This document shows positions 35,660-39,070 of a DNA stretch of 64,000 bases, one piece after another. Where the stretch lies: the NCBI RefSeq assembly GCF_002494345.1, contig NZ_NXNI01000001.1:186001-250000 (forward strand), read 5' to 3'. The DNA comes from Natrinema ejinorense (GTDB lineage: Archaea; Halobacteriota; Halobacteria; Halobacteriales; Natrialbaceae). Every line of letters starts with the position of its first letter. Position 1 is the stretch's first letter. A model generated the notes under the pieces. The model did not search any database. It was not told the origin of the DNA and worked only from the letters and a program-made list of their open reading frames with translations. Position numbers and translations under genes: made by a program.

Positions 35660-35857
35660 GCCATCGAACGTAGGGTTCGCGATCCCAAAAGCGCCGTGTC
35701 CGTTCCGGCCACCGTAATCGCTCGAGCGAGATCGAAACCGTCGGTAAAACGTCGTTACCGGGATCGAACGCCGGTCGACGGACGGGTTCGAGCCGGTTAC
35801 TCGATCGGGATCCCGTGACCGATAGCGTTTTTGATCGCTCGACCGTTGACGATAGCT

Positions 35858-38587
35858 GTGCACGTACGCGGAACCGTCGCGGGCGAGGTCGACGTACGGT
35901 CGGTAGCCACGAGCTACGGTGAAAGCGAACTCGCGGAGGTGCCGCTTCGGCCGGCCGACGACGCACGGAACGGCGAGTCACCCGCTCGCGGCGACGGCGG
36001 GACGGCGACCGTCGCGGACGGTCGCGAAACGACGACGGTAACGCTGTGGAACAAGTGGACCGAGTCGGCCGAACTGCTCGAGCCGGGGATGGAACTGCTC
36101 GTGACGAACGCCAAAGAAGAGGAGTACCAGGGGGAGACGCAGTACGCGACGACGGGCGACTCCTACGTCGTCGTCGAACCCTCCTTTCTCGTGAGCGTGA
36201 CGTCGATCCGTAACTGGGTCGAGTGTCCCCGACTCTACTACCTGAACAAGCTCTCGGGAGTGCCACTGAACTACCCCGTCGTCAAGGGGACCCTCGTCCA
36301 CGAGGTCTTCGGCGACCTGCTTCGTGGCCGCGACCTCGAGGAATCGATCGAGGCTCGCGTCGAGGAACGCGGGCTCCAGCTCGGCCTGCTCGGCGAGACG
36401 CCAGCGGCCGTGAAAGAGGAGATCAGGGAGAACGCGACGGCCATCGAGGGCTGGCTCGAGCAGGGTCGGCTGACCGAAGAAGACAGCTGGCGGTCGGAAC
36501 AGCTCCTGATCAGCGAGACGTTCGGCATTCGGGGCCGGGCCGACGCCGTCAGACGGGGCGCGCCGGTCGAACTCAAGACGGGCAAGAACCTGAAGAAAGA
36601 GCCCCGCTTCAAGGACAAGGTGCAGGCCGCCTGTTACGCGCTGTTGCTCGAGGAACACGGTGGGGACGTCGATATCGGGACCCTCCTCTACACGAAGAAC
36701 TCGGCGCTGGATCGCAACGAGGAGACCGGCGACCTGACCCCCGCAAAGGAGTTCACGATGGGCGATGGCCTCCTGAAGTACGTCGTCCGGCTGCGCAACG
36801 AGATCGCGGCGATGGAGACGGCGGGCGATATTCCGACCGGCTACGAGGCCGACGCGAAGTGCGAGTACTGCTTCGAACAGGACACCTGCATGGTCGTCTC
36901 CGGCCGGCTGGATCAGGAGTCGAAAGCCGGTCAGATCGGCCAGTCGTTGCCCGACGAGGAACTCGAGTACTTCGATCGCTTCTACCGGGCGATCGAGGAC
37001 GAACGCCGGGAGGTTCACCGCGAGTACGCCAAACTCTGGGAACAGACGGCCGAGGAGCGGGCCGACGACGACCGCGCGCTCATCGATCTCGAGTTCCTCG
37101 AGAAGCGACCGCTCGAGGGCGGCCGCTGGGAACTCAGGGCGCACAACACGGGCGGCGCGAACTCGAAGCTCCGGGAGGGAGATCTGGTGCTGGCAAGCGA
37201 CGGGGATCCGGTTCGCGGTAGCTCCGAACTCGCCCGAATCGAGCGGTTGGACGACGAAATCGTCATCACGGCTGACGAACCGGTCGAGGTCACCCGGCTC
37301 GACGTCTATCCATCGGAGTTGACGACCGATCGCCTGCTCGTCGCGATGCACGACGCGCTCCTGAAAGGCGACGACCGGCGAAAAGAGATCCTGTTCGGAC
37401 GGGCAAAACCGGCGTTCGACACCATCGAGGAGACGTTCATCGACAACAACGACCGACAGAACGAGGCCGTCACGAAGGCGGTCGGGGCGACGGATTGCGC
37501 GCTGATCCACGGGCCGCCGGGGACCGGGAAGACCTACACCATCGCTCGGGCCATCCGCGCGATGGTCGAACGCGGCGAGCGGGTCCTGCTGTCGGCCTTT
37601 ACCAATCGCGCCGTCGACAACGCGCTCGAGGCCTTGCTCGAGCAACTCGAGGACGTGATCGACGAAGATCGGGTCGTCCGCGTCGGCTCGGAAAGCGGCA
37701 TCCGCGACGACATGGAACCGTACCGGCTCGAACGGGCGGGTGATCCCGAAGATCGCGTCGCGACGCTGCAGAACGCGCAGGTAGTCGCGGCGACGACGTC
37801 GACCTGCGGCTCGCGGGTGATGAAAGAGCAGGCGTTCGACGTCGCGCTGGTCGACGAGGCCGCACAGCTCACCGAACCCGGAACCTGCGCGGCGATCAAC
37901 CTGGCCGAGCGATTCGTCCTCGTCGGCGACCACGAGCAGCTTCCGCCCGTCGTTCGGGCCGAAAACGACCTCACCGAGTCGCTGTTCGAACGACTCGTCG
38001 ATCTTCATCCCGAAGCCGGCGTGATGCTCGATCGCCAGTACCGGATGAACCAGCGCATCCAGGCCTTCGCCTCGAACGAGTTCTACGACGGCCAACTCCG
38101 GCCCGCGACGCCCGATGTCGCGGCGCGGACCCTGGACGATCTCGAGGGCGTCTCCCGGGATCGCCTTCCCGAGTCGCTGCAGGATCCGGTCTCGTTCGTC
38201 GACGTCGAGGGCGATCGGAGCCAGTACACCGACAGCGCGGAGGCCGCGCGGATCGCGGCGCTGATCGAGGCCTACGAGGCAGCGGGCCTCGAGCGCTCGG
38301 AGATCGGCGTCATCGCCCCCTTCCGCGCGCAGGTGTCGGAGATATCGACGCACGTGCCCGACGACGTCGCCGTCGACACCGTCGATCGCTTCCAGGGATC
38401 GAGCCAGGAAGTCATCGTCGTCTCCTTTACCGCGACCGGCTCGCTCGAGGGGCCGATCTTCGAGGACTACCGACGGATCAACGTCGCCCTTACCCGACCC
38501 AAGCGCGCGCTGGTGCTGGTCGGCGACGCGGCGGCGCTGGCGTCCGATCCGGTCTACGAGCGAATGCTCGAGTGGGCTCGCCGGTGA
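35858..38587 (+). CDS. Cas4/Dna2-like nuclease-helicase fusion
   Basis: 909 residues from GTG 35858 (VHVRGTVAGEV); the frame opens at 35831. Order: an N-terminal beta-rich part (1-110), a PD-(D/E)XK nuclease with one Cys at about 123, His148, Asp229, and Glu238-x-Lys240, closed by CEYCFEQDTC at 335-344 for a 4Fe-4S cluster as in Cas4/AddB, then an SF1B helicase. Walker A GPPGTGKT is at 552-559, Walker B VDEAAQLTEPG, GDHEQLPPVV, QYRMNQRI, DTVDRFQGSSQEVI, and INVALTRPKRAL. A Dna2-type enzyme for DNA end or flap processing. Strongly supported; no cas genes nearby. Confidence 0.92.
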   Translation: MHVRGTVAGEVDVRSVATSYGESELAEVPLRPADDARNGESPARGDGGTATVADGRETTTVTLWNKWTESAELLEPGMELLVTNAKEEEYQGETQYATTGDSYVVVEPSFLVSVTSIRNWVECPRLYYLNKLSGVPLNYPVVKGTLVHEVFGDLLRGRDLEESIEARVEERGLQLGLLGETPAAVKEEIRENATAIEGWLEQGRLTEEDSWRSEQLLISETFGIRGRADAVRRGAPVELKTGKNLKKEPRFKDKVQAACYALLLEEHGGDVDIGTLLYTKNSALDRNEETGDLTPAKEFTMGDGLLKYVVRLRNEIAAMETAGDIPTGYEADAKCEYCFEQDTCMVVSGRLDQESKAGQIGQSLPDEELEYFDRFYRAIEDERREVHREYAKLWEQTAEERADDDRALIDLEFLEKRPLEGGRWELRAHNTGGANSKLREGDLVLASDGDPVRGSSELARIERLDDEIVITADEPVEVTRLDVYPSELTTDRLLVAMHDALLKGDDRRKEILFGRAKPAFDTIEETFIDNNDRQNEAVTKAVGATDCALIHGPPGTGKTYTIARAIRAMVERGERVLLSAFTNRAVDNALEALLEQLEDVIDEDRVVRVGSESGIRDDMEPYRLERAGDPEDRVATLQNAQVVAATTSTCGSRVMKEQAFDVALVDEAAQLTEPGTCAAINLAERFVLVGDHEQLPPVVRAENDLTESLFERLVDLHPEAGVMLDRQYRMNQRIQAFASNEFYDGQLRPATPDVAARTLDDLEGVSRDRLPESLQDPVSFVDVEGDRSQYTDSAEAARIAALIEAYEAAGLERSEIGVIAPFRAQVSEISTHVPDDVAVDTVDRFQGSSQEVIVVSFTATGSLEGPIFEDYRRINVALTRPKRALVLVGDAAALASDPVYERMLEWARR

Positions 38588-38690
38588 CATCCTCCTCGCG
38601 GTAAACGGGGAGGGATCGAAGATCCCTCAGGCAGTCGGGCACAGCCCGACGACGGCGAGGCTTCCCCCATAGGGAATACCAGTCAGTCGA
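38583..38690 (-). repeat. solo structured element, possible IS200/IS605 right-end remnant
   Basis: Four stem-loops in 100 bases after the helicase gene: AGGGATC-GAA-GATCCCT (38611-38627) and GTCGGGC-ACA-GCCCGAC (38634-38650) are perfect, flanked by CCTCCTCGCG/CGGGGAGG at 38590-38608 and a GGCGAGGCTTCCCC block near 38655. Read on the minus strand it begins with GGGGGAAGCCTCGCC and ends CGCGAGGAGGATGTCAC, phrases I associate with TnpB element right ends in haloarchaea. No tnpB gene is present. Identification is tentative. Confidence 0.4.
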
Positions 38691-38761
38691 ACCCGCGACC
38701 ATGAGGTATAGGTACTGAACTAAAACTCGTCGGGTCCCTCGGGACGGACGGAGGCACGTTC

Positions 38762-39070
38762 ATGACACGACACGACGGGACGTCGACGGCGAATTCACCG
38801 GGCGATGGCTCCGACTCCGAGCCGTATACCGCCCGGTACGACTGGGACGGGACCGACCTGCCGTCGTCGTCGATCGTTCGGACGGTCGCGGCCGTCACGG
38901 GCATGGAGCCAGCCGACATGCGACCGCTGTACGACGTCGTCGATGCGGAGGCCGTGGACCGACTCTTTACGCGCACCCGGGGCCGGGCACGACCCGAACG
39001 CCTCTCCTTTCGCTTCGAGGACTGCGACGTCACCGTCCACGGCGATGGGCGAGTCGTCGTCGCAGTGTAA
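38762..39070 (+). CDS. HalOD1-domain protein
   Basis: 102 residues. The core from residue 30 (LPSSSIVRTVAAVTGMEPADMRPLYDVVDAEAVDRLF) and ending FRFEDCDVTVHGDGRVVV resemble the HalOD1 output domain found in haloarchaeal signalling proteins, with the alternating helix and strand layout. N-terminal 28 residues are polar. It may act as a stand-alone response module. Convergent with the HTH-10 regulator (20 bp between their ends). Confidence 0.7.
   Translation: MTRHDGTSTANSPGDGSDSEPYTARYDWDGTDLPSSSIVRTVAAVTGMEPADMRPLYDVVDAEAVDRLFTRTRGRARPERLSFRFEDCDVTVHGDGRVVVAV

Follow-up and report, generated by a model that had tools for sequence, protein, structure and literature searches.

The element at the 3′ end of the helicase gene

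The window (the whole 64,000 nt stretch of DNA analysed) carries a gene for a Dna2-like nuclease-helicase on the plus strand (nt 35831–38587; Pfam Dna2, PDDEXK_1 (PD-(D/E)XK), AAA_11 and AAA_12), followed in the same orientation by a HalOD1 gene (nt 38762–39070; Pfam HalOD1), and the neighbouring genes also include one matching BAT/HTH_10. Extending from the end of the helicase gene towards HalOD1 is a 106 nt minus-strand sequence (nt 38584–38689), which homology identifies as the 5′-truncated right (3′) end of an IS1341-type IS200/IS605 element, the kind that carries the RNA-guided nuclease TnpB. These 106 nt are all that remains of the element. The 5′ limit is set by homology to tnpB-linked right ends, which reaches CGACTGACTGG (nt 38689), and the 3′ border (TCAC) by a related element for which an empty site is known. 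The original prediction had placed a structured, tnpB-free IS200/IS605 right end at nt 38583–38690, packed against the stop of a Dna2-like gene; the borders were off by one base on each side, and the position held good, the helicase stop codon (TGA, nt 38585–38587) lying inside the element. No tnpB or tnpA is found among the genes next to it.

Read on the minus strand, the whole element is CGACTGACTGGTATTCCCTATGGGGGAAGCCTCGCCG TCGTCGGGCTGTGCCCGACTGCCTGAGGGATCTTCGATCCCTCCCCG TTTACCGCGAGGAGGATGTCAC, in which the middle block is an insert described below; from nt 38668 to nt 38584 it reads GGGGGAAGCCTCGCCG ... CCGTTTACCGCGAGGAGGATGTCAC. It belongs to a haloarchaeal class with right ends of the form ...CGACTGACTGGTATTCCCYATGCGTGGGAAGCCTCGCCG(insert)TTTACGGCGAGGAGGATGTCAC. 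The terminal motif GGATGTCAC (nt 38584–38592, minus strand) stands at the 3′ border, and its positions G78, G81, T82, C83 and A84 are invariant in 51 copies. The guide position follows directly, so that the would-be guide, placed relative to the TCAC border, would be CGGCGAGCCCACTCGA (nt 38568–38583, minus strand), antisense to the 3′ end of the helicase gene. A scan of the element region against Rfam returned no family.

Homologues and their linkage to tnpB

Of 125 family genomes searched with this stretch, 94 contain matches, many of them multi-copy, with best identities of 91–95% over nt 38584–38666. In many related genomes the homologues (77–95% identity) lie directly 3′ of an intact tnpB, as the original prediction required. 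Among 90 right-end loci, a tnpB ORF of intact length stops a few tens of bases short of the right end in 24, seven have a tnpB remnant and 59 no tnpB. These proportions are rough, as the loci were picked by similarity to the right end. The proteins upstream match Cas12f1-like_TNB, and L007 also OrfB_IS605 (Pfam). At least three TnpB types go with the right-end sequence, one about 89% identical to L007 of the window's own genome, one about 45% identical to L008 of that genome and one of the L003 type (about 57%). On this homology, the identity of the right end is secure.

Pattern, model and homology searches were run on the genome of the window copy. A covariance model returned the window copy as its best match (E = 3e-24) and, second, the right end of the intact tnpB at C1:1492029. 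Weaker matches were right ends without evident tnpB (C2:362872-362909, C1:1327229-1327266 and C1:1640788-1640825), from which the insert is absent. The genome has seven matches to TnpB domains, one of them an intact protein of 423 aa. Five of the seven fall within about 50 kb (C1:1492000-1541000), possibly an island of mobile elements.

Conserved helices

Folding energy was dropped as evidence of structure, the region by itself being unremarkable (z = −1.1, not significant), and for this reason covariation and homology were used. It is homology (E down to 1.7e-36) together with covariation that raises the element above chance. In an alignment of 51 copies and 85 columns, three helices have 95.7% of cells paired, with eight pairs and 47 cells changed on both sides; none of 500 shuffles was as good, and slid controls were 36–56% paired.

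The outer, right-end stem is formed by a 5′ arm at nt 38653–38660 and a 3′ arm at nt 38594–38601 (both minus strand), with 94.4% of cells paired and two-sided changes in four of its eight pairs. It varies freely, as CCTCGCC/GGCGAGG, CCGCGCC/GGCGCGG, CCCCGTC/GACGGGG or CCTTGCC/GGCAAGG, so that a subterminal stem-loop is kept by compensatory changes close to a conserved 3′ terminus (G-GTCA, invariant in the 51 copies). The 85 nt 3′ half of the window copy shows few differences from the 51-copy consensus, one of which breaks a pair of this stem; nt 38654 and 38600 face each other as C–C. On the 5′ side of the right-end stem, direct reading and the alignment place a TTCCC/GGGAA stem (nt 38662–38676, minus strand), in which nt 38672–38676 pair with nt 38662–38666.

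A 47 nt double-hairpin insert

The apical loop of the right-end stem holds a 47 nt insert (nt 38606–38652, minus strand) made up of two hairpins, which occupy what would otherwise be a TTTA loop. Hairpin 1 (nt 38634–38650) is GTCGGGC-TGT-GCCCGAC, with 97.8% of cells paired over 51 sequences, and is a perfect 7-3-7 stem-loop as first described. Hairpin 2 (nt 38610–38628), GAGGGATC-TTC-GATCCCTC, had been given the same form and proved to be one pair longer, a perfect 8-3-8; one of its pairs exchanges between UA, GC and CG in 16 sequences, and 95.1% of cells are paired. With a double hairpin defined as two perfect stems of at least 7 bp no more than 15 nt apart, the window copy is the only one in the 64 kb, and of 12 first-order Markov controls nine had none and three had one.

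Right ends with and without the insert can be compared directly. That of L007 reads GGGAAGCCCCGGCG-TTTA-CGCCGGGG, i.e., without the insert, whereas L042, whose TnpB is 94% identical to L007, has the same kind of right end with 47 nt in the loop. In the other class, L132–L136 lack the insert and L018 has it, at the same point (GCCG^TTTACGGC). The insert of the window copy is unique in its own genome. The core of the insert has 48 exact matches in the 125 genomes, all of them in TnpB-type right ends: 42 have the terminal motif downstream within a set distance, and the other six proved on inspection to be degenerate or truncated right ends. A 47 nt module spreading as a free mobile repeat was rejected on this distribution. 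The hairpins were likewise not found as ordinary terminators after unrelated genes, an outcome that the original prediction had named as evidence against itself.

IS1341-type elements carry several different double-hairpin inserts of about 45–60 nt, each at a fixed position: in the loop of the left end (L033, L085–L088), at GGGAAG^CCTCG (L034, L041), before CGACTGACTGG (L018, L133, L135) and in a scaffold stem (L026, L092). Not counting those in right ends, the 500 bp upstream of right ends contain 26 double hairpins, against two in the other 206 kb of the loci. The comparison points to a testable theme in haloarchaea, the gain and loss of sequence-specific double-hairpin inserts in the loops of TnpB guide-RNA scaffolds. 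In the ISDra2 omega-RNA, removal of the distal stem 3b raises activity (PMC10097598); as that stem is dispensable, inserts in distal scaffold loops could, by analogy, be harmless.

Two intergenic regions of the window copy's genome contain clusters of several hairpins (C1:2862862-2863007, L139 and L150; C1:3436482-3436662, L147 and L148). One hairpin of these clusters, GTCGTCGGCGCTTCGCGCCGACTGCTCGAGGGAGCAACGCTCCCGCTCAG, resembles a diverged insert, outside any evident TnpB context.

Proposed insertion at the helicase stop codon

Multi-copy relatives are bounded by CTAT^CTTTCTTCAAGGAGAGAATCCCG on the left and TCAC^ on the right. When the flanks of one such element (L087) were joined and the genus was searched, an uninterrupted site was found in G074, reading CTATCCGG. 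This empty site shows that L087 spans from the C after CTAT to TCAC (CTAT^C...TCAC^), having inserted 3′ of a short fixed target without target duplication, and the empty site restores CTAT. For the window copy, the corresponding ancestral site would be CTAT^CGGCGAGCCC, or GGGCTCGCCG^ATAG on the plus strand, i.e., Arg(CGC)-Arg(CGA)-TAG; the bases next to the border, CTAT^CGGCGAGCC, represent CGA TAG. This site is reconstructed, the nearest allele differing from it at one base: genome G060 is element-free and has CGC-CGC-TAG, so that its empty allele reads CTAG, not CTAT.

The current stop codon of the helicase gene is transposon sequence. Insertion would have converted CGC-CGA-TAG to CGC-CGG-TGA, leaving the protein end (WARR-stop) unchanged. 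None of 28 congeneric loci and none of 80 named orthologous loci has an element at the helicase 3′ end, which suggests that the insertion was recent and local.

Probable loss of the 5′ part

After a few bases 5′ of CGACTGACTGG, the window reads CCTCATGG, which is the HalOD1 promoter sequence in reverse. This host promoter region (CCATGAGGTATAGG, nt 38699–38713, plus strand) marks the left limit of the element, and similar sequences precede HalOD1 in relatives with the same gene order (CCATGAG-TATAGG in L057 and L063, CCATGAGATTTAGG in L052). Other members of the class have, in place of the host promoter, GCAGATGACGCTCAC...GAGTCGGAACCC...CCAG, a sequence that can also be given as GCAGATGACGCTCAC...GAGTCGGAACCCTCTACCAGCG. 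No left end, with target motif and subterminal palindrome, was recognised on the minus strand upstream of nt 38689.

The missing part includes a strand of a putative pseudoknot. Once inserts are removed, L018 and L132–L136 carry TGAC 103–105 nt from the 3′ end, where it could pair with the terminal GTCA, a geometry matching the pseudoknot of the ISDra2 omega-RNA, in which −105..−103 pair with −5..−3 (PMC10097598); the window copy has no such TGAC. It thus lacks both features expected of a functional omega-RNA, the 5′ scaffold helices and a pseudoknot strand some 100 nt 5′ of the guide. As these parts, needed by a TnpB guide RNA, are gone, the window copy most likely has no role other than to terminate the helicase reading frame. 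No convincing minus-strand promoter was seen at the element by eye; the accompanying promoter scan was one for bacterial promoters.

A sequence of events can be proposed. A parent IS1341-type element would have inserted immediately 3′ of a CTAT overlapping the old helicase stop codon, and its right end would then have provided a new stop without altering the protein. Everything 5′ of CGACTGACTGG (the left end, the tnpB gene and half of the omega-RNA scaffold, on its 5′ side) would then have been lost, leaving 106 nt between the helicase gene and the HalOD1 promoter. Two points count against this account: the deletion step was caught in no strain examined, and the 3′ half is well preserved, which recent decay or weak selection could also explain. 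Taken as a whole (insertion at CTAT at the helicase stop, use of the right end as stop codon, loss of the 5′ part and a non-functional remainder), this account is very probably correct. The window copy would then be an example of a transposon end that takes over as the stop codon of a host gene, leaves the protein unchanged and afterwards decays in place.

The alternative offered in the original prediction, an orphan guide RNA, supposes that the minus strand is still transcribed and that a TnpB from elsewhere uses the RNA to cut element-free helicase alleles, maintaining the fragment without a tnpB of its own. In its favour, the right end is intact together with its terminal motif and the guide position, the genome's 423 aa TnpB has in L042 a close relative whose right end bears the same insert, and the nearest relative, G060, contains a near-perfect target (CTAG CGGCGAGCCCACTCGAGCATTCG). 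However, 47 of the 106 nt kept are insert, and the 5′ scaffold and putative pseudoknot strand are gone, which disfavours this reading for the window copy. In addition, none of the genome's TnpBs is closely related to the L018/L019-class proteins (about 45% at best), the omega-RNA of its L007 type has a different upstream scaffold, and the G060 site is CTAG whereas element insertions adjoin CTAT. We consider an orphan guide highly unlikely here. In the open-access library searched, no publication describes solo right ends of TnpB elements acting as orphan guides in archaea.

Comparison with transposase-free elements of haloarchaea

Terminal-only remnants of IS605-type elements and PATEs have been described in Haloquadratum walsbyi, along with deletions of the element core that take out tnpB and with short mobile repeats inserted into near-terminal palindromes (Dyall-Smith et al. 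2011, PMC3119063). The window copy shares with these PATEs and terminal-only IS605/IS1341 elements the character of a transposase-free haloarchaeal remnant recognised by its near-terminal palindrome. The Haloquadratum terminal-only forms, however, fuse both ends (52 bp, through a repeat-mediated deletion), whereas only the right end is present here, and the inserted repeats of Haloquadratum are about 110 bp long with terminal inverted repeats, while the window insert is 47 nt without evident ones (PMC3119063).

A further alternative is mobility of the fragment in its own right, as a short non-autonomous PATE or MITE with terminal palindromes and a transposase acting in trans. Mobility has been suggested for the 52 bp terminal-only element (Dyall-Smith et al. 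2011, PMC3119063), and TnpB-free, two-ended copies of 420–476 bp are multi-copy and near-identical in relatives (L032, L085–L088). In the window copy no left end can be recognised, and host promoter sequence stands in its place; this copy is the only one in its genome with this insert, and no second copy with the same left border was found there. A PATE is transposase-free, with near-terminal IS605-type palindromes at both ends and no inverted repeats; as only the right palindrome is present, the window copy is not a PATE in the strict sense, and independent mobility is very improbable. The "MITE-like relic" first proposed thus stands as a relic, more exactly a 5′-truncated one with its left end missing. 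The preferred reading is a truncated relic with close similarity to the terminal-only elements of Haloquadratum, a further, one-ended example of an already known kind of haloarchaeal IS605-type remnant.

That the hairpins are an ordinary terminator or regulatory structure of the helicase gene, resembling a TnpB end by chance, is refuted: strong stem-loops directly at the 3′ end of a gene would suit such a role, but a scan found no terminator-like site, no orthologue examined has the element, and the insert core is confined to TnpB-type right ends.

The relic can also be set beside TnpB-linked guide RNAs. The omega-RNAs (sotRNAs) of Halobacterium salinarum lie at the 3′ ends of IS200/IS605 tnpB genes and have a right-end hairpin and a pseudoknot (Picinato et al. 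2025, PMC12558985). Both they and the window copy are haloarchaeal and IS1341-type, with a right-end hairpin and a 3′ terminal motif followed by the guide; the sotRNAs, in contrast, are tnpB-linked, transcribed and provided with a pseudoknot, whereas the window copy lacks tnpB and the 5′ scaffold (PMC12558985). The omega-RNA of ISDra2 TnpB (Deinococcus radiodurans) follows the same plan, with the scaffold 5′ of the guide and a guide-adjacent 3′ motif pairing about 100 nt upstream, and a distal part of its scaffold is dispensable, as the apical insert of the window copy would suggest (PMC10097598). That scaffold is complete with its pseudoknot, whereas this part is lost in the window copy (PMC10097598).

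TnpB-free relatives with a conserved scaffold

The TnpB-free elements of 420–476 bp (L032, L037, L043, L084–L088, L092 and others) retain the CTAT^ left border, a left end with a palindrome, a TATTTAAG-like (TATA-like) box and the right end, and no TnpB coding match is left in them. They also keep the scaffold helices ACTCC/GGAGT and GGCGG/CCGCC. Over tnpB-linked and TnpB-free copies, 97.4% of the cells of these helices are paired and six pairs show two-sided changes, a result reached by none of 500 shuffles. A second testable theme is that haloarchaeal TnpB-free multi-copy elements keep a compensatorily changing guide-RNA scaffold though the protein coding is gone. These elements, rather than the window copy, are the more plausible candidates for guide RNAs used in trans. 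A broader proposal, that double-hairpin modules are exchangeable parts in the scaffold loops and left ends of haloarchaeal IS1341 elements and that the 420–476 bp derivatives propagate as independent guide-RNA transposons using TnpB supplied in trans, is tentative and rather unlikely as it stands; were it true, the window copy would be a dead fragment of that world. Near-identical TnpB-free copies occur in three genomes (G057–G059), e.g., L085 at G057:C7:11027-13910.
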